Positions 2,874-22,687 of a DNA stretch of 32,742 bases are shown piece after piece (positions within the stretch are counted from its first letter, which is position 1; each line of letters starts with the position of its first letter). This DNA comes from a virus. A model generated the notes under the pieces. The model saw only the letters and a program-made list of their open reading frames with translations, ran no database searches and was not told the DNA's origin. Position numbers and translations under genes: made by a program. The stretch is taken from IMG/VR virus record IMGVR_UViG_3300030060_002676, positions 1-32,742 of that record; one strand, written 5' to 3'.

Positions 2874-5800
2874 TTGTCTCAGGTAAATCCTTCGCAGCCG
2901 GTTGAACCTTCGTTTGAAGACAAGGTTTCACAGTTTGAGCAGCAGCAGCAAGACCGTCGCTTCTTTAATGAACGCCCCGGTCAAGTTGAAGAAGTCACGG
3001 TACGGCAAGACACTGCACAAGACGTTCTTCCAGCCATGCAGGAGATCGAAGCATCTCTTGTCAAACCCAACTTTAAGGAGTTCACACCGGAAGAAGTTGA
3101 CTTCATACAGGAGGGGAGACTACAAGACCAGCAGCGTCGCCTTCAACTCCAAAAACGGAATGAGGACCGCCGTGCCTTAAAACGCAAAGAGCAGGCACGC
3201 GCTCAACACATGAACGGTTTTGCCGCCGAGGTGAAACGGCTAAACAAAATGATGGACATGGGCCAGATCAATGCTTCCGAGTGGACAAGGGGCAGAGGTC
3301 TTTTAGATAGACAGTTTGATGATGAATTCAATCGAAAATACAAAGAGCCAGACTTTGTAAACGAAGGTCGCGTCTACAACCCTGCTGAATTTAGGCACGT
3401 TCCCTTATACAACAATCCCGAAGAAAACGTACAAATTGGCGAGATGCGTGTCAATACAAGGCACTACATCGACAATGACATGATGTTGCCAGAGCGCATG
3501 TATCAAAGCGAGATGGGCGACAAGAAGTTTGAGGTGCAGAACGGAGAAGTTCTTTACTTTGACGGTCGTGAAACGCCAACCCAAGTTTTTGAATACTTGA
3601 ACGCCAACGGTGACGGCACAAGAATGGCACAACTTGCTAAGAGCCTCAGTGAACTTGAGTTGTTGCATACCAGAGATATGACCACCAGTGATCGCGTTAT
3701 GGCAACACTGGCTTATAGCGGCGAGCGTTTTGGCAAAGCATTCATGGATATGTTTCCAAGTGTTGCAAGCACCATTGAAGATTGGTTGTTTGTGCCTATA
3801 CAAGAGCGTGTACTCGAAGGAACGGACATCGAGGCTCCGGGTCTTGCGGGCATTTGGGGTGGAGATGAGCGTGTCAACTGGTTGAGTTATCTGCAAAAGC
3901 AGCGTCCTGTTTTCTTTGATGACATAACAACTGAGTCAAGCGTTGCTATCGCTGAGGCTATCCCCGGATTCATGGCAACTATTGCTACTGCCTTTGCTAC
4001 ACGAAACCCCCGCGCTGTTGCCGGAACTGCTGAGGCAACAGGTCTTGCACGTTTGGGTTCAACGGTTGCAAGCACGACCAGAAATATGTATTCAGGAGTC
4101 AGGGGGACTATTTCTCAATCTATGCCATATCTGGTCAATAAGTTGAGGAATGAGCAACGATACCTTGACATGGGCTTGACTCCAGAACAGGCCAAGCAAA
4201 ACGCTGCCGCTGATATTGCCGCTGGTCTGGTTGCCGTTTATGGGTCTAACAAACTTTTGGGCGGCTTGAATTCATTTGCCATGAAGAACCCTGCATTCAA
4301 GCAGGCTTTTCTTTCAAGTGCAAAATACAAGTTCCCGCACATTGTTGCCAAAGGCTTCACTCGTGAAGCAATTCAGGAGGCTTTTGACGAGTCATTCCAC
4401 ACCGCTTTGACCGCCACACTTGACCGTGCTGATTTCTTTGGCGAACGAGAAGATGGCGATTTTCTTATTGGTGCAAGAGAACTTCTGATTGCTGCCATTG
4501 CTGGCGGTGTTCTTGGTGCAGCAGGTGGAGGAACGATTGACTCTATCCATGTCATCAATGCACTCGACGCAGAATTTTTGAAGGACACCGTTCCAAAAGT
4601 TGGCGACAGAGCGACGTTCCATGACGGCACGCCGATGACACTGGTTGACGAGGACAAGACTTTTATCCGTGACACTCCCAGAGACACGGATGTTGAAATC
4701 CAACTTACCGAGATTGACCCCAAAAGCCCAGATGGCTTGACCTACGAACAAACTGGTAGATATCGAAACGGTCGGGTTCCCAAAGTCACTGAGTCAAACA
4801 AAGATAAGTTTGAACGTGCATGGAAGAACCACTACTACCAGCACATGGTCAAGGAAGAGGTTGAGCATCGGCCCGTTAACGAACGCAGAAACATCTTGTT
4901 GCGTTCTTTTGACAGTCTGCGAACCTTCTCTGAGGGCAAAGGTGTTGACCCAGAGATGTTTGGTGATCCAAACTCTGAGATTTACGAGGGTGCTGGCAGG
5001 GCAAATGGTCAAAGAAAGATTGACCTTGCAAGTGCAGACGCGGAACTGGCATACGCACTTGCTGGTAAATCGCTGCCTGACATTCGGCTAGGGGAGTCTC
5101 CGGCCCGGACAGGGGAGCGAAAGTTCAAGCCCTTGAAGGGGACATCTCGCGCAGACTTCAAGAAGGCTGGCTTGAGCCGGTTTGTCAAGGGGATGAACCA
5201 AGAGCAGCGTGAAACCTTTGTCCGCAAGGCGAAGGAGAGCGTTGAGCGATTGAACGTGCGGACCTCATTGCAAGATGCACTGGCAGAGCAGGCTCTCACA
5301 GCGGCGGAGGATAGGCCAACCGCCACATACGACCGAGACATTGCAAAGATTCAGAAAGATGCCAAGGTCACAGCAAAGAACTTTATTCGCTCCACTGACA
5401 GCGCACGCTTCTGGCTTGGTATGCGTAGCAAGTCTAAGCAGGCGATCATGGGACCAAGCACACCGTTTGAGGGTATGGCGGTTCCAGAAATTGTTGCCCT
5501 TGCCGCAGATCAAATGGTTGCACAGCAGGTGTCTGATGCGGTATCTGCTGACGAACAAGTTGGTCAACCGACACACCTTGACAAAGACAGTAGATTTTTT
5601 GGAACCAAGCCAAGCCCAGAGGCAGTTTCAATCCTTGAAAATGTTCTAACAAACTATCGAGGTATGGGCCTTGTCACTGGTGAAGTCGCTGCTCCTCCCT
5701 CTGAAGCGGCTGCTGAACTTGTGGAGAGTATGCGCATTGCCGGTACGAGCGTGGTGTTCGTTGAGTCAATGGCGACTGAGGCTGTGCGTGACCGATCTAC

Positions 5801-8800
5801 CGGCATCATCATTGTCAATGCTGCTGAGTTCGAGAATGATCCCAACTCAGTGATTAGTGCTGTGTTGTCACATGAGTTTGTCCATAACCTTCAGTTCTAT
5901 CACCCCAAGAAATACAAGGCACTTGTCAAGGGTTTGAAGTCCATCAACCCAGACATGCTCACTGACGGTGCGAAAGAATATATGTTCCGATTAGCCCAAT
6001 CAGAGGCTATGAGACAAGGTGTTGAACTGCAAAGACAATCTTTCACAGACGCGGAGGTTGTTCAGTTTCTGCAAGAAAATCCACAAGTAGCGATGGAGAT
6101 TGTTCCTTATGCAGTCACTCAACTGGTCGAGGCGGCTGACGGTGACATGAATAGGGCTTTGGCCCGTGCGTTTAGCGGTATGGGCAGGGGCAAACTGGGC
6201 CGCTTTGTAGGCAAGATGCGACGATTCATTTCAGCCATACGCGGTGGTCAAAATGTATCTCAGGCTTGGTCATCTGCATCTGCTTGGGATCAAGTCTTGT
6301 TGGCGTTTGAGTCTGCTGCGTTTGAGTACCGAACTGAAGGCCCAGCAGCAGCAGAACTAACACCAGAACAGATTGCCAAGCAGCCACGCAGAGCAAGGCC
6401 CAAGCAGGGATCTGGCCCGCCTCTGCCTGTTGATAGCGAACCGCAGGTTGATGTTGAGGAAGTTAGCCTCGGTGAGTCCAACACGGTTGACGAAGCAATC
6501 TTTGCTGCCGCAGAACTTGCTGATACAAATGACTCTCTTGAATCTGTTAGTCGTGCGATGAGCCAAGCGGCTGGCGACAACTTTGTAAGTCGTGATCCAA
6601 GAGTGGAAGAGGGAACATCTGCCTCAGTCTTTGCTCAAGGTGGTGCTGCCGCTTTGCAGAGACAGCAACGTGCGGACATCTTTGACCGTATGACTGCACG
6701 GACTGGTTCAATCAGTCAACGGATGCTTGCTGCAAACCTCAAGGCTAAAGGCGAGTCGGCCTTGAGTCGGGCGAAGGCTGCTGTTGAGACCCGCAAGCCT
6801 CAAGAGTCCATCAAAGGTATTGTGCAAGAACATGCTCTTGCTGCTGAGGCTGCGGTCCACTTGCAGGGCAAAGAGCCGACCAAAATTGAGATCATCAAAC
6901 AGATGGTTGCTGACATGATGGTTGAAGATCCTGAAGGCTACGCAGGCATCATGCCAGCGATGATTCGACGGTATGCAGCGTTGGGTCTGACTCAGCCAGA
7001 GGCCGAACGTATTGCAAACGAAGCACGCCAGAAGAGATTTATCTCCGAAGAAGAGGGCGTTTTTGGAGATCAAACGAGCATTGACGCTCAGATTGAAGAT
7101 GCAATCGGTGAGTCCTACCAGCCATCTGAATCTGCTGAGGCTTACAACCAAATTGACGAGGATATTGAGGCTCGGTTTGACCGGCTGTTTGACGCATCTC
7201 TCAGCACCAGTCCACGCCCGTATGTCACTGAAAATGAATACAAGCAGTTGCGAAGAGAGTTTGACATTGGTGCGGCTGTGACCGGAACCTTTGAAATAGA
7301 CTTTGATGCAGATTACGAAAGGGTTGCACTGGTCGAAAGTTCTGCGAAACCTTTGACCATGTATTCAAGTTTTCAAGAACTGCTAGATGAATCCGAACAT
7401 CCAGTGTTTGATGATGTGCCGGGTGTCGTGGTTGAGGTCTTGATTGATAACAAGCCTCTTCGTATTTCTGTCAAAGAAGACGGGGATATGCAGTTTACCT
7501 ATGGTGACAACGAGAGTCTTGAAATGCAAAGCCATAAGGATTTGAGAAAAGTCAAAGCCATTATGGGTACGGTCGAACGGGTCGCGGGCAGACTCGCTGA
7601 ACTTGGTGCATTTAAAACTGGAGCAAGTTTGCAGATCGCAGACGGTTCTACTGGTCGCGCCAAGCGGTACGCTCAGTTTATGGTGGCGTTGGGGTCAAGA
7701 ATTAATCAAGAGTTGCCTTTGGGCGAACATCTTGGTTTTGTGCAAAAAGGCAACAAGTTGTTCCTTGATCCAGTCTTTATGACCAGAAGCGATGTCATGG
7801 GAGATGGTGCAACAAACAGCATCTATATGAGAGCCTTGGATATGGAGATTGAGGAACGGTTTGCACTTGATCTTGCAGAGGACTTGGCGGACGCACACAA
7901 GAGAATCTTCGCAGCGTTTGAATCAGCAGAAATTACATTCCTTGACGCAATCAACCAACTCAACGAAGAAGTGGCTGCTACCCAACAGGCTCAACTTAGC
8001 CGTTTAGAGAACCGCGATGACATTGATGTTCAGCAGAAAGTTCTTAGCCCCCTAAACATTTTGTACCGTGCGACTCCCCCGATCCCAACGGACTTCGCAG
8101 CCAGACAATATGCCGATGTAGATTTTGACGCTTCAATGCTGACCGGCAAAAAGATGCTTAACGCATTCCGTTCGCGTGGCGACCTACCTGCTGCTGTCTT
8201 TGAACGCAAGTTCTTCAAAGATTCAAAGGTAAGAGCGGCTGCTGACGATATTACCTTCCGTTCCAACCAACTTAAGAAGGCAATCAAAAAGGCTAAGGTA
8301 GAAGATGAGGCTGGTCTTTTGGCAACCGTTGATCTTGCGTTGAAGGACAAGAACGGTGCTGCCATGAAGAAACTGAAAACCGACTTCCCAGAGGTTGGCA
8401 TTCAGGTTATGACCATGCGGCAGAAGATTGATGACATGACTGGGCAGTTGAAGCGTGACGGAGCGTTCGTTGGCTTAAATGTCGATGTGGATTCCAGATT
8501 GGGAACATACGTTCACAGGTCATACCGAATCTTTGACGATCCAGACTACGCACGCAATGTTCCCAAAGACGTTCGCAACGCGATGAAAATGCACCTCACG
8601 GATGTTGATGGCATGACCCCCCTTGAGGCTGAGGTTGCAATCCAAGGGTTCTTGGAAGTTGGTGACGCTGCTGGTCCGTTGCAGATGATGTCCAGCGGAA
8701 AAACTTTGCCGCGTGACATTCTCAAGAAACGCAACGAAGGTCTTCCTGAGCCTTTGCGAATGTTGTGGGGCGAATACAAAGATCCGTATGTCAACTATGC

Positions 8801-10799
8801 GAAGTCGATGCAAAAGATGGCTGCTCTCTCGACCAGCATCCAGTTTGCCAAAGAAATTGCTCAGGCTGGACAGGTAGAGGGCGACGGTCAGTTCTTGTCT
8901 GCAACAGCAAAAGAAGGATTTGAACACAAGTTCCCAGATGACAAGTTGCGGTACGGCGCGTTAGCAGGCATGTACGCCAAGCCTGAGTTTGCTGAGGCTT
9001 ACGAAGCACAGTACAAGCCAGAGGTTTTCACCAGTGAGTTTGGTGCAATTTACGCTTATGGGGTGTCTACTGCAAAATGGGGCAAGACCGTTGGCAACCC
9101 GCAAACGCACGTTAGAAACACCATTGGCAACATTCTGTTTGCTGTAGCAAATGGTCACTTCAACCCGACAGCCCTCGCCATGCCACTGAAGAGCGTGTTG
9201 GATTCTTCACCAATCATTGTTGCGATGAGGGGTGGAGATGTTGAGGCTGCTCAACGCGAGTACAACAAACTTGCTCAACTTGGGGTTGTTCAAGCCGGAA
9301 GCGTTAGAGATGTTTACGCTTTGATTGAAGAATCAAAAGAGTTGACCGTACCTCAATTCATTAAGAAGTTGATGGACAACAAAGCCGCGAGGTTTATGAA
9401 GAAGGGTGTCGAAGGAACAATCGACGCTGCGAACAGAGCGTACACATTTGAAGATGACGCTTGGAAGATTTTTGCATTCAACTACGAAAAGGCACGGTAC
9501 GAGAAAGCCTACGGCGGCACGCTGCCAGACACCTTCCCGAACGACGCAAGAAACCTTGACGAATACATAGCGACGATCATTCGTGACACATACCCGAACT
9601 ACACGATGCCTCCGAAAATCATTCGTATTTTAAGAAGAACGCCGTTTGTCGGGACGTTTGTGTCTTTCCCGGCTGAGGTAGTGAGAACCGGCATTCAGCG
9701 GGCCAAGATTACTGCTCAAGAGATTAAGAGTGACAACCCAGAAATTCGTCGCATTGGATATGCAAGAGCAGTAAGTCAGGTCATTGCACACTCATTCTCA
9801 GTGTTCATGGTAAAGGCAGCACACGCTTTGCTCGGAACATCTCCAGAAGAAGTGGAGGCAATGCGTGAGTTGGTAGCCCCGTGGTCGCAAAACTCGCCTC
9901 TGATCGTTTGGCGTGGCGAAGACGGCAAGTACAACTACATCGACTTGGGCTACACAGACCCGTTCAGCATGTTTACTAAAGCCTTCTACGGCTTCATGCG
10001 TGGCGAAACCTTTGAGGAAGGTTTGTTTGGAAGCAACGACGGTTTCCAGCGTGGATTGGTCAACGAAATACTTGAGCCGTTCATTGGAGAAGATATGGTG
10101 TTCGGTTCACTGCTGGACATCTATCGCGGGCGGACTGATACCGGCAGACCGATCTACAGTCGTGGCGATGCCCGTCTGACCAAGTTGCGTAAAGTTGCTG
10201 AACACTTCTTTGGCGACTTGCAGCCGGGATTTGTGAAGAACATGATTACTGTCCCCTACAAATCGTTGGCAGGAATCACTGATGACTACGGCAAAGTGTT
10301 TGATCTTCCGACACACTTGGTATCGCAGGCGACTGGTTTCAACTTGAAGTCGATTGACCCTCGACAGGCTTTGATTTTTAAGGCCAAGTTGTACGCTCGG
10401 ATGGAGCAGGAACTTAGGTACGAAGTGACCAAGGTTGCTGGTCGTGCTGGTACGGTCAGTGAAGGCGAGTTGTTCAACACCTATGAAGAAGTCAACGCAG
10501 CCAGAGAACAACTGCTGATGGGCTTCCGTGGTGTGTTGCTTGCAGGTGAATCTGTGGGGATCAAGCGGGGTGAGATGTTCAAGATTCTGAAAGACGCTGG
10601 CGTTGCTCAGAAGCGTATCCCTGCCTTGCTCAACCACGTTCATGTCCCAATGGCAATCGACACGGACATGCTGTCCCGCTACTACAAGAAGGCTGGGCCA
10701 GACGCTCCACTGCGAACCGTTGGTGAGATGCGTAAGAGGATGATCGCTCTCAGGACAGCAGAGCGACAGGCCCGCAAGAAAGCGAAAGAGTCCCGGTAA
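2874..10799 (+). CDS. Giant (2641 aa) polyvalent-type internal virion protein with zincin motif
   Basis: The TTG start at 2874 is chosen because AGAGGA at 2861-2866 sits 7 bases upstream and the previous gene stops at 2872. Residues 1-130 are charged and helical. Residues about 355-400 and 535-560 contain small-residue hydrophobic stretches, possibly membrane-penetrating. A metallopeptidase motif HEFVH lies at residues 1000-1004. Near residues 2080-2100 is NPQTHVRNTIGN, and near 2260 is FVSFPAEVVRT. The latter resembles the C-terminal region of phage 'large polyvalent proteins' (LPD38-like); that resemblance is from memory. Such proteins are thought to be injected with DNA, to act on host targets or defences, and to help ejection. 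The zincin would be a protease if its third zinc ligand is present. No RNA polymerase, methyltransferase or helicase motif was seen, which argues against N4 vRNAP or DarB. Confidence 0.65.
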   Translation: MSQVNPSQPVEPSFEDKVSQFEQQQQDRRFFNERPGQVEEVTVRQDTAQDVLPAMQEIEASLVKPNFKEFTPEEVDFIQEGRLQDQQRRLQLQKRNEDRRALKRKEQARAQHMNGFAAEVKRLNKMMDMGQINASEWTRGRGLLDRQFDDEFNRKYKEPDFVNEGRVYNPAEFRHVPLYNNPEENVQIGEMRVNTRHYIDNDMMLPERMYQSEMGDKKFEVQNGEVLYFDGRETPTQVFEYLNANGDGTRMAQLAKSLSELELLHTRDMTTSDRVMATLAYSGERFGKAFMDMFPSVASTIEDWLFVPIQERVLEGTDIEAPGLAGIWGGDERVNWLSYLQKQRPVFFDDITTESSVAIAEAIPGFMATIATAFATRNPRAVAGTAEATGLARLGSTVASTTRNMYSGVRGTISQSMPYLVNKLRNEQRYLDMGLTPEQAKQNAAADIAAGLVAVYGSNKLLGGLNSFAMKNPAFKQAFLSSAKYKFPHIVAKGFTREAIQEAFDESFHTALTATLDRADFFGEREDGDFLIGARELLIAAIAGGVLGAAGGGTIDSIHVINALDAEFLKDTVPKVGDRATFHDGTPMTLVDEDKTFIRDTPRDTDVEIQLTEIDPKSPDGLTYEQTGRYRNGRVPKVTESNKDKFERAWKNHYYQHMVKEEVEHRPVNERRNILLRSFDSLRTFSEGKGVDPEMFGDPNSEIYEGAGRANGQRKIDLASADAELAYALAGKSLPDIRLGESPARTGERKFKPLKGTSRADFKKAGLSRFVKGMNQEQRETFVRKAKESVERLNVRTSLQDALAEQALTAAEDRPTATYDRDIAKIQKDAKVTAKNFIRSTDSARFWLGMRSKSKQAIMGPSTPFEGMAVPEIVALAADQMVAQQVSDAVSADEQVGQPTHLDKDSRFFGTKPSPEAVSILENVLTNYRGMGLVTGEVAAPPSEAAAELVESMRIAGTSVVFVESMATEAVRDRSTGIIIVNAAEFENDPNSVISAVLSHEFVHNLQFYHPKKYKALVKGLKSINPDMLTDGAKEYMFRLAQSEAMRQGVELQRQSFTDAEVVQFLQENPQVAMEIVPYAVTQLVEAADGDMNRALARAFSGMGRGKLGRFVGKMRRFISAIRGGQNVSQAWSSASAWDQVLLAFESAAFEYRTEGPAAAELTPEQIAKQPRRARPKQGSGPPLPVDSEPQVDVEEVSLGESNTVDEAIFAAAELADTNDSLESVSRAMSQAAGDNFVSRDPRVEEGTSASVFAQGGAAALQRQQRADIFDRMTARTGSISQRMLAANLKAKGESALSRAKAAVETRKPQESIKGIVQEHALAAEAAVHLQGKEPTKIEIIKQMVADMMVEDPEGYAGIMPAMIRRYAALGLTQPEAERIANEARQKRFISEEEGVFGDQTSIDAQIEDAIGESYQPSESAEAYNQIDEDIEARFDRLFDASLSTSPRPYVTENEYKQLRREFDIGAAVTGTFEIDFDADYERVALVESSAKPLTMYSSFQELLDESEHPVFDDVPGVVVEVLIDNKPLRISVKEDGDMQFTYGDNESLEMQSHKDLRKVKAIMGTVERVAGRLAELGAFKTGASLQIADGSTGRAKRYAQFMVALGSRINQELPLGEHLGFVQKGNKLFLDPVFMTRSDVMGDGATNSIYMRALDMEIEERFALDLAEDLADAHKRIFAAFESAEITFLDAINQLNEEVAATQQAQLSRLENRDDIDVQQKVLSPLNILYRATPPIPTDFAARQYADVDFDASMLTGKKMLNAFRSRGDLPAAVFERKFFKDSKVRAAADDITFRSNQLKKAIKKAKVEDEAGLLATVDLALKDKNGAAMKKLKTDFPEVGIQVMTMRQKIDDMTGQLKRDGAFVGLNVDVDSRLGTYVHRSYRIFDDPDYARNVPKDVRNAMKMHLTDVDGMTPLEAEVAIQGFLEVGDAAGPLQMMSSGKTLPRDILKKRNEGLPEPLRMLWGEYKDPYVNYAKSMQKMAALSTSIQFAKEIAQAGQVEGDGQFLSATAKEGFEHKFPDDKLRYGALAGMYAKPEFAEAYEAQYKPEVFTSEFGAIYAYGVSTAKWGKTVGNPQTHVRNTIGNILFAVANGHFNPTALAMPLKSVLDSSPIIVAMRGGDVEAAQREYNKLAQLGVVQAGSVRDVYALIEESKELTVPQFIKKLMDNKAARFMKKGVEGTIDAANRAYTFEDDAWKIFAFNYEKARYEKAYGGTLPDTFPNDARNLDEYIATIIRDTYPNYTMPPKIIRILRRTPFVGTFVSFPAEVVRTGIQRAKITAQEIKSDNPEIRRIGYARAVSQVIAHSFSVFMVKAAHALLGTSPEEVEAMRELVAPWSQNSPLIVWRGEDGKYNYIDLGYTDPFSMFTKAFYGFMRGETFEEGLFGSNDGFQRGLVNEILEPFIGEDMVFGSLLDIYRGRTDTGRPIYSRGDARLTKLRKVAEHFFGDLQPGFVKNMITVPYKSLAGITDDYGKVFDLPTHLVSQATGFNLKSIDPRQALIFKAKLYARMEQELRYEVTKVAGRAGTVSEGELFNTYEEVNAAREQLLMGFRGVLLAGESVGIKRGEMFKILKDAGVAQKRIPALLNHVHVPMAIDTDMLSRYYKKAGPDAPLRTVGEMRKRMIALRTAERQARKKAKESR

Positions 10800-16044: not shown

Positions 16045-16423
16045 GTCCCAGCGTGATAAAGGCAAGCGGGGCGAGCGTGAAGTCGTACAAATCATGCGTG
16101 ATCTTGGATGGCCTGACGCTCGGCGTGCAAGACAATCTGACGGAGCAGTAGATCCTGATGTCGCTGGCTGTCCTCCATTTTGGCTGGAAGTCAAACGCAG
16201 AAAAAGCATCGCCGCCGCAAGGTTCATGGATCAAGCGGTCGGCGATGCCGAGGAAAAAGGCATGCCCATTGTATTCCTTCGGGAAGACAATGGAGAGTGG
16301 CTAGTTATGCTTCGGTCGGCTGATGTTCAGTCGTTCGCTGCTGAAATCGTTGCAAGATCCGACGAACAGAAGAAGCATCCCACGACTTGCCGCGAGGCTT
16401 GTGACCTGCCGCGTCGAGATTAG
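16037..16423 (+). CDS. Holliday-junction-resolvase-like PD-(D/E)XK nuclease
   Basis: A TTG at 16037, overlapping the previous stop, gives 128 aa. Residues 8-20 read KGKRGEREVVQIM (E13), then DVAGCPPFWLEVKRRK carries D41 and E51-x-K53. This E...D...ExK order is that of the archaeal Hjc/phage Holliday-junction resolvase branch of the PD-(D/E)XK fold. Such enzymes resolve branched DNA during replication and before packaging. The start is weakly supported by ribosome binding sequence. The final 119 bases run convergently through the end of the serine recombinase gene on the other strand, and the last 25 residues look non-conserved, so the core function ends near residue 95. Confidence 0.7.
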   Translation: MGKSQRDKGKRGEREVVQIMRDLGWPDARRARQSDGAVDPDVAGCPPFWLEVKRRKSIAAARFMDQAVGDAEEKGMPIVFLREDNGEWLVMLRSADVQSFAAEIVARSDEQKKHPTTCREACDLPRRD

Positions 16424-17003
16424 TGCAGATCGAACGCCAGCCGTAGCCTTCGCCCCTGAGCCGGTGCATGTATTCCAGTGCCTGCTGTTCTGCTTGGTCT
16501 GGAATGATGCGGGCTGGATCGTCTGGGTCAACTGTCCAACCATACGGGGCATGGCGTGACATCCTTCGACCCTGACTCTGATACCTCTTCATGGCAACGG
16601 ATGTCCTGACCTGAACCAGCCGACGCTCGTACTCTGCTGCCGCTGCAAGAACCTGACGAATCAACCTGCCTTCGGCAGTGTCATCGGCAACTCCTTCGCG
16701 GACTGCTTGAACCCTGAACCCACGCTTTTCGGCGTGCCGGTGCAGTGCTTCAGCAAGGTATAGATCGCGGGCCAAGCGGTCCATCTTCCATACCAACAGA
16801 ATGCCGCCACGGGGTACTGCATCCATCGCATCCCAAAGACCTTCACGCTCTGGGTCTGCCCCGCTGGCGTGGCTGTCTGAGTGAACAGACAACACACGCC
16901 AACCGTTTGCCCATGCGTGCTTCTGGCACTCATCAACTTGGGTGTCGATGGAGTTAGATTCGCCGGGCCTCGGTGAGAATCTGGCATAGATCACGCATTC
17001 CAT
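16305..17003 (-). CDS. Small serine site-specific recombinase
   Basis: The protein is 232 aa. The catalytic domain begins MECVIYARFS with the nucleophile S10, and VWKMDRLARD at residues 71-80 supplies the conserved D-R-L-x-R. Residues about 125-215 (YERRLVQVRT, APYGWTVD, WDASSVRRIL) resemble the start of the 'Recombinase' domain that follows the catalytic domain in serine integrases. At 232 aa it is longer than resolvase/invertases (about 180-200) but far shorter than large serine integrases (450 or more). It would cut and rejoin DNA at short sites for integration, inversion or resolution; no att or inverted crossover sites were identified. It is last in the minus-strand operon and its start overlaps the sirtuin gene by 13 bases. 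Confidence 0.85.
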   Translation of the reverse strand: MECVIYARFSPRPGESNSIDTQVDECQKHAWANGWRVLSVHSDSHASGADPEREGLWDAMDAVPRGGILLVWKMDRLARDLYLAEALHRHAEKRGFRVQAVREGVADDTAEGRLIRQVLAAAAEYERRLVQVRTSVAMKRYQSQGRRMSRHAPYGWTVDPDDPARIIPDQAEQQALEYMHRLRGEGYGWRSICTNLDAAGHKPRGKSWDASSVRRILQRFQQRTTEHQPTEA

Positions 17004-17653
17004 TCTTCACCTCCCAACAGTCTCGGCAACATCTCGCAAGCCGTACCCTGAATCCACACGCCGCCGGTCTGTCTTTTTCTCGGTTCGGGGTCGATGTGAA
17101 CCCTGAACTTGGTTCCTCCAACTCCGCTGACAAGTGTGCATGCTGGCTGAACCTCAAGTGATGTGCCGACCGAAATCAGCATGTCACAATTCTGGATGGC
17201 AACGCAGGCTTCATGCCATGCGTCCGCAGGTAGCGGCTCACCAAACAGAACAACTGATGGGCGTACCAAGTCCTCCATCTCATAGTCGTATCTGTCCTCC
17301 ATCAACTCGCCGTGTAGGTGAATGGCTTTCTTGCCTGCACGTTCTGAAAGATCATCTACGTTCTGGGTGATGTGAGTCACCTTCGGATTGTTGGCGATGG
17401 CGAAGTGTGCAGCGTTCGGCTCGATGTCCTCCAACTGCTCCCGCCAAGTGTGATACTGGTTGACCACCATTTCGGTGTTTTCCAACAGGCCGGTCCTGCT
17501 GGCGTACACCTCTGGATCGTAGGTTTGCCAAAGCGGATCTTCGGAGTCACGGTATGTGGGAATGCCGCTCTCGGCACTGAGTCCAGCACCAGAAAAGACA
17601 ACAATACTTTCTGCTGATTTACATTCATCTCGGATCATTTCAAAGCAATTCAT
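16991..17653 (-). CDS. SIR2-family (sirtuin) NAD-dependent protein deacylase, zinc-less
   Basis: The protein is 220 aa. GAGLSAESGIPTYR (residues 22-35) binds NAD; TQNVDDL (96-102), IHLHGE with the catalytic base H114, RPSVVLFGE (131-139) and SVGTSLEVQPA complete the sirtuin signature. Related enzymes (CobB, SIRT5) have four cysteines in a zinc site between HGE and RP; here only 15 residues lie between them and none is cysteine. Y67 in QYHTWRE aligns with the acyl-lysine tyrosine of CobB/SIRT5, while the partner arginine position is W70, followed by R71. The enzyme may remove acyl groups from host or phage proteins, or act on NAD/ADP-ribose-based defence. It follows the DUF3846-like gene by 2 bases, with AAGGAGGG as ribosome binding site. 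Confidence 0.88.
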   Translation of the reverse strand: MNCFEMIRDECKSAESIVVFSGAGLSAESGIPTYRDSEDPLWQTYDPEVYASRTGLLENTEMVVNQYHTWREQLEDIEPNAAHFAIANNPKVTHITQNVDDLSERAGKKAIHLHGELMEDRYDYEMEDLVRPSVVLFGEPLPADAWHEACVAIQNCDMLISVGTSLEVQPACTLVSGVGGTKFRVHIDPEPRKRQTGGVWIQGTACEMLPRLLGGEEWNA

Positions 17654-19261: not shown

Positions 19262-19522
19262 TCAATCCCTTTCTGCGTCGTGACGCATGTTCTCGGTGTG
19301 TTCTTCTTCGACCTCTTCCTGCCAGCCGATTGCCTTCTCCACTTGAGACTTGATCGTGTAAAGGTCTTTGGCCTGCAAGAGCATTACTGGTATGGCCTGC
19401 TCGCCTTCAACATTTTCGGCGGTTCTTTTGGCATGCTCTTCGCTGCATCCACCGATGCGATTGAAGCCATACTCCGGCGTGTATATCCACCAATCGGTGG
19501 GTCGTGTGATTGTGTAAGACAT
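19262..19522 (-). CDS. Unknown acidic protein, 86 aa
   Basis: The start at 19522 follows AAAGGAGAG, part of the repeated leader described separately. Residues 1-30 are aromatic (PTDWWIYTPEYGFNRIGG), followed by a helical segment (EEHAKRTAENV) and a glutamate-rich end (WQEEVEEEHTEN). It is the last gene in the accessory operon to have its own structured leader; those after it are coupled. Function unknown. Confidence 0.75.
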   Translation of the reverse strand: MSYTITRPTDWWIYTPEYGFNRIGGCSEEHAKRTAENVEGEQAIPVMLLQAKDLYTIKSQVEKAIGWQEEVEEEHTENMRHDAERD

Positions 19523-19578
19523 AACAAACTCTCCTTTTGTTAGAGTGAATCCCCACCATCACCTCTCGATGATGGTGG
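19523..19578 (-). promoter_or_regulatory. Structured leader copy 1: TCGAGAGG-loop hairpin plus SD box
   Basis: On the minus strand a 9-bp hairpin (arms 19578-19570 and 19561-19553, loop TCGAGAGG) begins 9 bases after the upstream stop. It is followed by CACTCTAACAAAAGGAGAG then TTTG, which contains the Shine-Dalgarno sequence of the 86-aa gene. The hairpin has no following T-tract, so it is not a standard terminator. The same architecture is found at 20743-20800 and 21311-21380. Confidence 0.75.
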
Positions 19579-19587
19579 AGTGTTGGG

Positions 19588-19956
19588 TTAGCCCACCACG
19601 GGCTGGTCGAGATCAGTATCGGCATACGCCTTCTTGATTTGATCCGACAGGTCACGCGCCCTTGATCCTCGCCCATTCATGGACGAATAAATCTTGAGAA
19701 CGTATGCGATCGAATCGACAACATCCAAGGCATAGACTCCACGCATTTCTGTGACTGGGGTTCCATCCTCGCCATACACCACCGATTTGTGATCGGCAAA
19801 ATCTGACTTGTGAATATGTACCCAGCGTTCCAGTTTCGATTCGGGTACGCCGGTTGCCTCCGCAACTTTGTCCACGTGGTAGATCCCGTGTCCGTCGTTT
19901 CCGAAGTAGTCAATGAGGCTCAAAGCCTCCCGTTTGGTGAGTGTCATTTTTGACAT
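19588..19956 (-). CDS. Unknown protein with possible winged-helix segment, 122 aa
   Basis: The ATG at 19956 lies 5 bases after GGAGAG; the in-frame extension upstream overlaps the leader hairpin and is rejected. Residues about 22-48 (IYHVDKVAEATGVPESKLERW) look like a helix-turn-helix, and VTEMRGVYALDVVDSIAYVL follows. The C-terminal part (RARDLSDQIKKAY) is charged and helical. DNA binding is possible but the resemblance is only to the general HTH pattern. The gene has its own promoter candidate (20056-20084) and leader. Confidence 0.7.
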   Translation of the reverse strand: MSKMTLTKREALSLIDYFGNDGHGIYHVDKVAEATGVPESKLERWVHIHKSDFADHKSVVYGEDGTPVTEMRGVYALDVVDSIAYVLKIYSSMNGRGSRARDLSDQIKKAYADTDLDQPVVG

Positions 19957-20002
19957 ACAAACTCTCCATTGTTGATAGTGAATTGTCGCCGGACCATCCG
20001 GC
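19957..20002 (-). promoter_or_regulatory. Structured leader copy 2 (variant hairpin)
   Basis: It contains CACTATCAACAATGGAGAG then TTTG, the same SD box as the other leaders. Upstream is a shorter 6-bp hairpin (GCCGGA/TCCGGC, 3-base loop, 19988-20002), unlike the 9-bp hairpin with an 8-base loop found in copies 1, 3 and 4. The box is conserved while the hairpin has been replaced, so the two parts may be separable. Confidence 0.6.
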
Positions 20003-20055
20003 AAACCCCGACGCATGGCAGAACCACACGCCGGAGAAAAAGAGGCAGGTTGTCC

Positions 20056-20084
20056 ATCTTACCATGTGGATCAACCCCTGTCAA
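20056..20084 (-). promoter_or_regulatory. Sigma70-like promoter inside the accessory operon
   Basis: Read on the minus strand: TTGACA (20084-20079), 17 bases, TAAGAT (20061-20056), matching the -10 consensus at four of six positions with a perfect -35 and ideal spacing. It lies in the only sizeable gap of the operon, 93 bp after the 105-aa gene, and would start a transcript with about a 90-base leader that includes the hairpin and SD box of the 122-aa gene. It implies separate control of the distal genes, including lysozyme-like protein, sirtuin and recombinase. Confidence 0.65.
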
Positions 20085-20095
20085 GCGGCTTGGTC

Positions 20096-20413
20096 TTACT
20101 CGTCAATGCCCACCAAATCCCAAGACCAAAACATGTCGCCGTCAAAGACGTAGCCATCCGGCTTCAGCACGGGCTTGCACTTGTCAAACTGCGGAGCGAC
20201 GTATTCATCAAGCCATGCCTGTGCAGCCTCGGCGTGGTTGTCGGTATCCCGCATTTTGTTCCGATCCCACGGCAGGACAAGGCGACGCGGGGGGGTGTCG
20301 ATGTCATGCCGTGAATCGGTGACGGCAATCCGAGCGGGTCGGTGGCTGGTGGCTGGTAAAACACGGGTTCGGATACCGCTCCATGTCATTTTTTTCTTTT
20401 CGATTGTTGTCAT
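20096..20413 (-). CDS. Unknown protein, 105 aa
   Basis: The ATG at 20413 overlaps the upstream stop (ATGA) and has GGGAGCG upstream. The N-terminal half is basic (MTTIEKKKMTWSGIRTR and PRRLVLPWDRNKMRD) and the C-terminal half is acidic and aromatic (WLDEYVAPQFDKCKP, then DGYVFDGDMFWSWDLVGIDE). No motif or family was recognised. It ends just before the internal promoter. Confidence 0.65.
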   Translation of the reverse strand: MTTIEKKKMTWSGIRTRVLPATSHRPARIAVTDSRHDIDTPPRRLVLPWDRNKMRDTDNHAEAAQAWLDEYVAPQFDKCKPVLKPDGYVFDGDMFWSWDLVGIDE

Positions 20414-20742
20414 TTGATTCGCTCCCATTTGTTAGCGGTGATGATTGATATAACTCGATCCCATTCGTTGCCCCATTTGCCGCCGATGTGCCAAAAACTA
20501 ATGTCCTCGACTTTTCGGTTCTCGCCATAGTTTGGGCCGTTCTTCCAATTGTAAATGGTGCAGACCACACCATCCTCAAACTCGATTACCCATCGGGCAT
20601 CGACCTTGTAGCCGTCGCCTTCGGCTGGCTCTCCGAATAGGTCAACCAATTCGGAATACTTGGCGAATGTAGCCTTGAGCAAACTACTCCCTTCGGTCTT
20701 GTCGAATACGTCTTGGTCGTGTTGGATTGCTTTGTATTTCAT
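20410..20742 (-). CDS. Conserved small phage protein (WHIGG-type), 110 aa
   Basis: The real start is the ATG at 20742, 8 bases after GGAGAG in the repeated leader; the longer frame upstream only shadows the neighbouring gene. The core reads FGEPAEGDGYKVDARWVIEF, then EDGVVCTIYNWKNGPNYG and FWHIGGKWGNEWDRVISII. I recognise this pattern from small proteins of many unrelated phages and conjugative elements, without a known function. It probably forms a compact alpha/beta fold. Translation is coupled to the 105-aa gene by a 4-base overlap. Confidence 0.75.
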   Translation of the reverse strand: MKYKAIQHDQDVFDKTEGSSLLKATFAKYSELVDLFGEPAEGDGYKVDARWVIEFEDGVVCTIYNWKNGPNYGENRKVEDISFWHIGGKWGNEWDRVISIITANKWERIK

Positions 20743-20800
20743 AATGCAAACTCTCCTTTTTTTAGAGTGAAACCGCACCACCACCTTCCGATGGTGGTGC
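20743..20800 (-). promoter_or_regulatory. Structured leader copy 3: TCGGAAGG-loop hairpin plus SD box
   Basis: A 9-bp hairpin with arms at 20800-20792 and 20783-20775 and an 8-base loop TCGGAAGG starts 15 bases after the upstream stop. The following CACTCTAAAAAAAGGAGAG then TTTG carries the SD of the 110-aa gene. Relative to copy 1, arm positions 1 and 7 are changed on both sides, so pairing is kept. Confidence 0.75.
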
Positions 20801-20815
20801 AGTGGGTGGGCCGGA

Positions 20816-21310
20816 TCAGCCATAGATAACGTCGCCATAGTCGATGTATTGGAACAGGCAGTCCCAGCAAACCGAATCGCCGTTGTCAGCCATGATCTCT
20901 TTGAACACCCACCAATCAGGATTTTCTGCCATCTTGTTGAACGCCTCAGTGACCGTTTGCTTGTTGATCTTGGTGGCTTGGCAATACTTCTCGATGAAGT
21001 AATCGTCCCAGTGGAAATCGTCGTGGCACTTGGTGGTGTGGTCGATGCAGAAGGTGTAGACATCCCCGCCTTTTCGATACAACTCTTCGGCTTTTTCCCA
21101 GCGAATAGCCATATAAATCAAGCCGTCTTTGATGACCCGATCTTCTTCGTCCAAAAATTGCAGCAAGGGGTGGTCTTGGGTTGGGAGAATGTAGAAGCCA
21201 CCGCCCCGCCATGTTCCGAAAGTGCAGGCAATTTCGTGATTGCCAGCAAGATCAAAATTGTCGTGGTCGATCTCAATAGATACGCTTTTCACAGTCTTGG
21301 ATTCATTCAT
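20816..21310 (-). CDS. Unknown protein, 164 aa
   Basis: Start at 21310 behind AAAAGAG in the leader. The protein is rich in W, Y, D and C: YILPTQDHPLLQFL, CIDHTTKCHDDFHWDDYF, and WWVFKEIMADNGDSVCWDC near the C terminus. A helical segment (CQATKINKQTVTEAFNKM) lies in the middle and resembles an HTH only weakly. Cysteine pairs may bind metal. It has the look of small phage proteins of unknown function that depend on an 'aspartate/tryptophan-rich' surface. No family was recognised. Confidence 0.7.
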   Translation of the reverse strand: MNESKTVKSVSIEIDHDNFDLAGNHEIACTFGTWRGGGFYILPTQDHPLLQFLDEEDRVIKDGLIYMAIRWEKAEELYRKGGDVYTFCIDHTTKCHDDFHWDDYFIEKYCQATKINKQTVTEAFNKMAENPDWWVFKEIMADNGDSVCWDCLFQYIDYGDVIYG

Positions 21311-21380
21311 GGTGCAAACTCTTTTCTGCCCTTGTTGGGCTGTTTAGTGAAGCCCCCCCACCGCCTCTCGACGATGGGGG
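21311..21380 (-). promoter_or_regulatory. Structured leader copy 4: TCGAGAGG-loop hairpin, mini-hairpin and SD box
   Basis: The 9-bp hairpin uses arms 21380-21372 and 21363-21355 with loop TCGAGAGG. One pair is U-G when read as minus-strand RNA but would be A-C on the opposite strand. The SD box is interrupted by a short GCCC/GGGC hairpin (21328-21340) directly upstream of AAAAGAG. The element separates the ArdC-like gene from the 164-aa gene. Confidence 0.75.
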
Positions 21381-21401
21381 AGTGTTGGGGTGGTCTATCG
21401 G

Positions 21402-22364
21402 TCAAGCCATCGCTGGCTCTTCGATGTCTTCGGTGACTTCGGCATAGCCCATGACCAGCCCCGCCGCCTTGCCAGCCCGACCAGCGGCCCAAGGCAACAC
21501 GCCGTAGTCCGGATCGCCTTTGTCATCCTTCAACGCTCCGAGCCAATTCTTGAGGTACGCCACACACTGCTCCTCGTTGAATTGCTCGCCGTGGGCCGAC
21601 ATCAGCATGGCTGATCCCATCTCCGCGATCAACTCTTCCCGAGCGTATTTCTTTGACCCGAATTTGTTCCCCAATTCTCGGGACAATCGAGTGTCATGCC
21701 CCGTAGCGTGGCAAGCCTCATGGGCAAGGGTTCGAGCGTACTCGGCTCGATCCTTGAACTGCCCGACCAGCGGCATGCGGATTTCGTCGATCAACTTGGA
21801 ATAGCAGGCCCGATCGCCGCCCTCGACCAGTTTGATTCCCTCGGAATCCAGCCAATCCTTGACCGTGGATTCGGTCGCCAATGCTGGATCTTTGTGATCG
21901 GTCGGGATGCCATTCAACTCGGCATTTTTGGCCGCGAGTCGGTCCAATCGGGCTTGGAGTTTGTCGCGGTCGATGCCTTCGACCTGATCGGCGTTGAATA
22001 CCTTGTAGGTCTTGACCATGAAGATTTCTTTCTCCTCCGGAGTACCTTCCTTGATCTTGACTTTTGCCCACCAATAGACCCAAGCAGGGGAGCCATTGAA
22101 CTTGGTGGCTCCGAGTTTGGTCCAATGCTTGCGAGTACCCCACCAAGGCATCGAATACCCTTTTTGGTAGGTCAAGAAGCACAACCAAAGGTCGTTCATG
22201 CCTAGATACTGTTTCCCGTTCGACAGTTTCCGGGGTGCTGATGGGCTGAATGGCTGAATTTGTGACTCGATCCAAGGACGCATCCAAGGGGCGATATCCC
22301 GTCCATCTTTGATGGCGGATTCGAGTGTCGTAGCGATATGCTCAAAGTGTTTGACTTGTTTCAT
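21402..22364 (-). CDS. ArdC-like antirestriction protein with zincin domain
   Basis: The ATG at 22364 (320 aa) is preceded by AGGAG in the leader; frame upstream of it is non-coding leader. The N-terminal 130 residues (PWMRPW, LSNGKQYLGMNDLWL, PWWGTRKHW) follow the ArdC_N single-strand-DNA-binding pattern, with YWWAKVKI next. The C-terminal part is a zincin metallopeptidase domain with HEACHATGH (H215, E216, H219) followed by EELIAEMGSAML, the usual downstream helix with the third ligand. ArdC proteins protect incoming DNA against restriction and are encoded by plasmids and phages. As first gene of the minus-strand operon under the promoter at 22722-22750, it is expected to be expressed early. 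Confidence 0.85.
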   Translation of the reverse strand: MKQVKHFEHIATTLESAIKDGRDIAPWMRPWIESQIQPFSPSAPRKLSNGKQYLGMNDLWLCFLTYQKGYSMPWWGTRKHWTKLGATKFNGSPAWVYWWAKVKIKEGTPEEKEIFMVKTYKVFNADQVEGIDRDKLQARLDRLAAKNAELNGIPTDHKDPALATESTVKDWLDSEGIKLVEGGDRACYSKLIDEIRMPLVGQFKDRAEYARTLAHEACHATGHDTRLSRELGNKFGSKKYAREELIAEMGSAMLMSAHGEQFNEEQCVAYLKNWLGALKDDKGDPDYGVLPWAAGRAGKAAGLVMGYAEVTEDIEEPAMA

Positions 22365-22432
22365 AGTGCAAAATCTCCTGCCCCATCGGGGGCTGTTAGT
22401 GTTGAAAACCCGCCATGGCATTGAAGCCATGG
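22365..22432 (-). promoter_or_regulatory. Structured leader of the ArdC-like gene (variant)
   Basis: A 7-bp hairpin CCATGGC/GCCATGG (22413-22432, 6-base loop) is followed by a CACTAAC segment. A GCCCC/GGGGC mini-hairpin with 4-base loop (22380-22393) then lies directly against AGGAG, TTTTGCA and the ATG. The order hairpin - CACT box - mini-hairpin - SD matches copy 4, although the main hairpin sequence differs. Confidence 0.6.
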
Positions 22433-22687
22433 GCCGTTGCTATCGGCAAACCTATCGGGTTGCTTTCGTCAATTTTTGCCCGTTGCCTCACTCATGCCGC
22501 GACCGAATCGCGTGGATGTTTCTCACTGGCAAGGCCAGTAGAGGCGGATGGGACTCGCGTTCAGTGGGTGGTTGCGTTCATGGCTCGGAGCCTGTTACGT
22601 CCGTTGCTGGATGGGGACACGTTTAAGGTGTGCTGCCTCCCACTTGGCGGATGCCCTGCCCACTGTTGGCAAGATTGATCGGGTTGT

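Follow-up and report, generated by a model that had tools for sequence, protein, structure and literature searches.

Leaders in a minus-strand accessory gene cluster

The window, that is, the whole stretch of DNA analyzed here, is a 32,742-base IMG/VR virus record. DNA searches retrieved no near relative of this phage among isolate phages (one 36-base match, E 0.2), and a terminase search gave only isolate-phage matches of less than 60% identity; a host could therefore not be deduced. On the minus strand, from 22.4 to 16.3 kb, lies a cluster of 13 small genes, the products of which include an ArdC-like anti-restriction protein, a lysozyme-like protein (a weak Destabilase match), a Sir2-family protein, a serine recombinase, and several unknowns. 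The Sir2-family gene (16991-17653, minus strand) has a counterpart, 56% identical, in the relative G002. Elsewhere in the window, a 2641-aa predicted protein (2874-10799, plus strand) gave only a PHROG virion-structural match; zero matches were obtained in Pfam or among solved structures, and the record may be incomplete.

Eight of the 12 junctions between cluster genes abut or overlap, and the remaining four are gaps of more than 2 nt. All four gaps contain a hairpin-bearing leader, indicating that the leaders mark the borders of seemingly translationally coupled blocks. Three of these leaders (termed e21380, e20800, and e19578) carry related minus-strand hairpins, present where the initial annotation had placed them. 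The first (21353..21382, 13 bp, GAGA tetraloop) stands between the ArdC gene and gene 20816-21310, the second (20772..20803, a 14-bp stem with GGAA as tetraloop) separates gene 20816-21310 from gene 20410-20742, and the third (19551..19580, a 13-bp stem with GAGA as tetraloop) separates gene 19588-19956 from gene 19262-19522. As had also been reported, they follow closely on a stop codon (by 19, 12, and 7 nt) and shortly precede the next ATG (by 42, 29, and 28 nt).

The anatomy of the hairpins differs from the 9-bp stem and 8-base TCGRRAGG loop originally described. Minimum-energy folds have 13, 14, and 13 pairs, and the supposed loop is a GNRA tetraloop (GAGA, GGAA, and GAGA) closed by a C-G pair that stacks on a U-G pair. 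Conservation also runs on downstream of the hairpin, through TTCACT...GGAGAGTTTG. The larger leader, read as RNA, has the order hairpin, UUCACU, weak second hairpin, GGAGAGUUUG, AUG; at the DNA level, TTCACT follows each main hairpin, and after it come a small, weak hairpin (ACU...AGU; in e21380, GCCC/GGGC), AGAGTTTG, and the start codon, with GGAG preceding AGAGTTTG in two of the three elements. The downstream part of e21380 (21311..21352, minus strand) thus reads CTTCACT, the small GCCC/GGGC hairpin, and AGAGTTTGCACC ahead of ATG. That of e20800 (20743..20771, minus strand) has TTCACT, a weak ACUCU/AGAGU hairpin overlapping the Shine-Dalgarno GGAG, and GTTTGCATT, and that of e19578 (19523..19550, minus strand) has TTCACT, a weak ACUCU/AGAGU hairpin, and GGAGAGTTTGTT. 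Two of the copies are 85% identical across about 65 nt, and a blastn search using one copy as the query recovered the other two at E 1.5e-15 and 2e-10.

The fourth leader (19957..20010, minus strand), in front of gene 19588-19956, combines another hairpin, GCCGGA/TCCGGC, with the TTCACT...GGAGAGTTTG block. A looser fifth leader (22365..22450, minus strand), consisting of a CCATGGC/GCCATGG hairpin, TTTTCAAC, a GCCCC/GGGGC hairpin, and AGGAGATTTTGCAC, precedes the likely true ArdC start at 22364; its fold is by itself not unusual (z -1.35). The GGAGAGTTTG block alone is ordinary, given that it is also found, without such a hairpin, ahead of the plus-strand helicase start near 12.52 kb. Likewise, most AAGGAGTTTGCACCATG leaders elsewhere have no hairpin of the three-element kind, and a ribosome-binding block by itself is thus not diagnostic.

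Pairing, covariation, and strand preference of the hairpins

Three hairpins in the window, far more than expected by chance, combine a tetraloop with a perfect stem of 13 or more pairs; all have GNRA loops and all are the three elements. In 60 dinucleotide shuffles, any perfect tetraloop hairpin of at least 13 pairs arose 0.28 times per window, and GNRA hairpins of at least 10 pairs averaged 0.08 per window. Folding z-scores of the whole elements were about -3.0 to -3.6. The arms differ among copies, yet pairing is maintained, in agreement with the initial annotation: in a 13-pair model of the three copies, 39 of 39 cells are paired, with two-sided changes at 4 pairs. As a control, sliding the partners by 1-3 columns reduced pairing to 44-72%. 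The covariation is good rather than overwhelming, as only three rows are available and 8 of 500 column shuffles matched the observed score.

Folded as minus-strand RNA, the hairpins reach -21.8 to -25.5 kcal/mol, compared to -13.6 to -16.8 for plus-strand RNA, an advantage of 7-11 kcal/mol. This difference upholds the earlier argument that the U-G pair works only in minus-strand RNA, and such strand-specific stability, arising from G-U pairs, speaks for coding-strand RNA rather than for a DNA dyad. The proposal that selection acts on the structure of the coding-strand RNA is therefore supported by the compensatory changes, the strand-asymmetric stability, and the conserved C(GNRA)G apex.

Hairpins in related and other phages

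Relatives of the window phage were taken from IMG/VR on the basis of terminase identity (65-96%). Searches for relatives with ArdC yielded none, and those with the lysozyme-like protein yielded G005 only. Exact-pattern scans of IMG/VR for the leader gave zero matches, and Rfam contained no family matching at the gathering score. When a covariance model built from the three copies was run against about 1 Mb of DNA from other phages (partly redundant), no convincing additional copy emerged, so this exact hairpin family appears to be private to the window phage among the sequences searched. Matches to the model at E 0.001-0.2 (L036/L007/L034, L045, L043, L054, and L087) were coding sequence or different hairpins and were not counted.

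The initial annotation had proposed that a lack of copies in related phages, or identical hairpins, would point to recent duplication only. The outcome was mixed: the relatives yielded no convincing further copy, but the three copies are not identical, and hairpins of different sequence are similarly placed in G002, G004, and L027. The order hairpin-TTTCACT-small hairpin-AGTTTGCA, with other stems, occurs once in G004 (L043:5750) and once in L027 (1239, minus strand). Reading the sequences, we noted a compensatory change between their small hairpins, ACTGACA/TGTCAGT in G004 versus ACTGTCA/TGACAGT in L027. By eye, the gene junctions of G003 are short, with AAGAAAGG and no such hairpins, indicating that the function is not obligatory.

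In G002, whose terminase is 81% identical to that of the window phage, hairpins with the apex GGGAGTCTTACGACCCC or close variants lie between accessory genes, and one of them runs straight into AAGGAGTTTGCACCATG. A scan for the apex pattern identified 7 other contigs, 5 of them with long stems (two of these 5 being nearly identical). Stems of this second family have 15-19 pairs. Hairpins with the apex GGGGAGTCTTACGACCCC or close variants are found between genes at positions 391, ~956, 2240, and 3658 of L037, 1871 of L053, and 9366 of L054 on the plus strand, and at 8361 and 7628 of L049, 7376 and 6106 of L050, and 1304 and 571 of L051 on the minus strand. In the other apex-bearing records, some of which are fragments, a terminase relative was undetected or only about 26% identical. 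Among 10 second-family hairpins (4 from G002), two-sided changes affect 14 of 19 pairs and none of 500 shuffles reached the covariation score. Judging from its sequence, the apex might form tandem G-A mismatches that surround a small loop. A cellular genome collection gave 3 matches to the GGGGAGTCTTACGACCCC apex, none of them long-stemmed and no more than the estimated chance number.

Two minor observations concern the contigs of this family. ARAGORN found no tRNA in a tRNA-like stretch of L037, and L054 contains, at 8911-9400, several different near-perfect palindromic hairpins within about 500 apparently noncoding bases.

Possible roles and further noncoding features

Among known systems, the stem-loops resemble the PeSL (promoter-early stem-loop) cassettes of T4-type phages, which Arbiol et al. 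reportedly described in 2010 as including an early promoter, in that repeated stem-loops lie between small accessory genes; the three window hairpins differ in having no promoter between hairpin and gene. With intrinsic terminators they share a stable G+C-rich hairpin behind a stop codon and a GNRA loop, but not the U-tract. The nearest phage analogue by position is the SAS/ESAS of cluster K mycobacteriophages, in which a 13-bp block, GGGATAGGAGCCC, precedes the start (SAS) (PMC3203893). There too, a ribosome-binding leader is repeated in front of non-structural genes, in about half of the cases directly downstream of an inverted repeat, but the authors report that the ESAS arms are not compatible with RNA pairing and favor DNA-binding proteins (PMC3203893). 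The block in the window is GGAGAGTTTG, not GGGATAGGAGCCC, and the hairpin arms covary, unlike the SAS/ESAS inverted repeats, which lack compensatory change, indicating that the leaders are not members of the SAS/ESAS family.

We tentatively favor, at close to an even chance, the reading that the hairpins act as RNA elements between the cistrons of a polycistronic minus-strand message, insulating or stabilizing its segments. Stable hairpins that lack a U-tract and stand at every block border fit a known role, in which intercistronic structures guard segments against exonucleases or shape the 5' ends left by cleavage, protecting the malE segment on its 3' side and the papA segment on its 5' side (PMC5927463). 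As in malE-malF, papBA, and others, stable structures stand at borders of message segments within a polycistronic transcript, which in the window is presumed; the known structures are single and gene-specific, many inside coding regions (PMC5927463), whereas here a single structural type, its apex fixed, recurs at several borders within one cluster. The genes lie on the same strand with tight spacing and three of the four gaps have no room for a promoter, and the blocks are presumably co-transcribed. Each hairpin, which directly follows the stop codon of one translational block and directly precedes the next block's Shine-Dalgarno leader, could shield the upstream segment's 3' end against 3'-5' exonucleases and, once an endonuclease has cut, the 5' end of the downstream segment. 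It might also stop just-terminated ribosomes from running on, and each block would be translated from its own Shine-Dalgarno sequence, possibly modulated by the weak second hairpin. Some related and some unrelated phages have similarly placed hairpins of different sequence, probably serving to separate or protect messages.

A possible but clearly less probable reading is that the hairpins are attenuators, i.e. weak or factor-assisted terminators with partial read-through, leading to stepwise falling expression along the cluster. The stable hairpins directly behind stop codons, with 3-4 T in the next 8 bases, would suit this role, and hairpins behind the structural operon, near its 3' end (10.80-10.90 kb), are likewise U-poor. 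In addition, G004 and L027 have a hairpin with CTTTCACT ahead of a promoter-like sequence (read by eye), which also suits a terminator and counts against protective elements; together with the structural-operon hairpins, this arrangement makes partial termination conceivable. Nevertheless, the inner hairpins have no real U-tract and none was flagged by a terminator scan, whereas a hairpin with a normal-looking U-tract (16206..16248, minus strand; tail TTTTTCTG) ends the same cluster, 57 nt past its last gene, the recombinase gene. This internal control supports the initial view that the elements are not ordinary terminators and indicates that they are probably not full ones. The sequence following the covarying G002 hairpins is U-free, and none of the downstream genes has its own promoter in the 28-42 nt from hairpin to ATG, a stretch too short to hold one. 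A promoter-like TTGACA-17-TAAGAT (20056..20084, minus strand) upstream of the fourth leader is a consensus match only, and the cluster scan yielded only this site plus a weak one at 22750-22722; such consensus matches numbered 13, versus 10.4 expected from region shuffles.

We consider it unlikely that the hairpins serve to bind a phage-encoded or host RNA-binding protein (as a translational operator, or for antitermination or processing) that reads the conserved apex. The constant apex and variable stems of both hairpin families would be expected of such sites, and the apex of the second family turns up again in phages whose terminases are unrelated or were not detected. However, C(GNRA)G could be kept just because it closes a stem very stably, and we identified no candidate binder, although several cluster proteins are of unknown function. 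At 13-14 bp, the stems would be short for cleavage by RNase III. Least probable, and in our view improbable, is a mobile or duplicated leader cassette (hairpin plus ribosome-binding site) that travels with accessory genes and itself does little, or a DNA dyad resembling the extruded hairpin promoter of N4. Two copies are indeed 85% alike, as noted above, and for most genes flanking the hairpins the examined relatives gave no homologue, a pattern that exchangeable cassettes would produce. The compensatory changes and the G-U pairs, functional on the coding strand only, argue against both a cassette and a dyad. An N4-type promoter was judged unlikely because N4 hairpins are short with a 3-base loop (PMC4496689), compared to stems of 13-14 bp and 4-nt loops here, and the 2641-aa protein does not match the solved N4 polymerase chains.

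Noncoding RNA is little annotated in uncultivated phages. In this cluster, a repeated covarying hairpin marks the apparent message borders, and a second family is similarly placed in other phages. The recurrence of that family across several phages is the most surprising part. It is a rather doubtful idea that lineage-specific sets of hairpins with a fixed apex and variable stems form message borders in several lineages, and that phages of unrelated or undetected terminase have the GGGGAGTCTTACGACCCC apex in common through a shared host or phage factor that reads it. If the protective reading is true, the hairpins would represent one way for phages to set the stability or translation level of each block within a crowded operon, and could supply compact RNA parts for gene insulation.

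Two other noncoding features were observed among these phages. A stretch containing ..CTTAACACCCCAAAAT..GTATTTTTTGGGG..TATGTAATAT.., perhaps a control or origin region, lies between divergent gene blocks and is common to the window (about 23,300-23,190, minus strand) and its relatives (L037 1-70; L043 4290-4360; L041 2330-2260, minus strand; L027 2680-2620, minus strand; L045 2950-2990). Finally, an intergenic region of G005 (L045 3224-3370, plus strand) contains repeated TGCGCATAATGCGCAGG palindromes.
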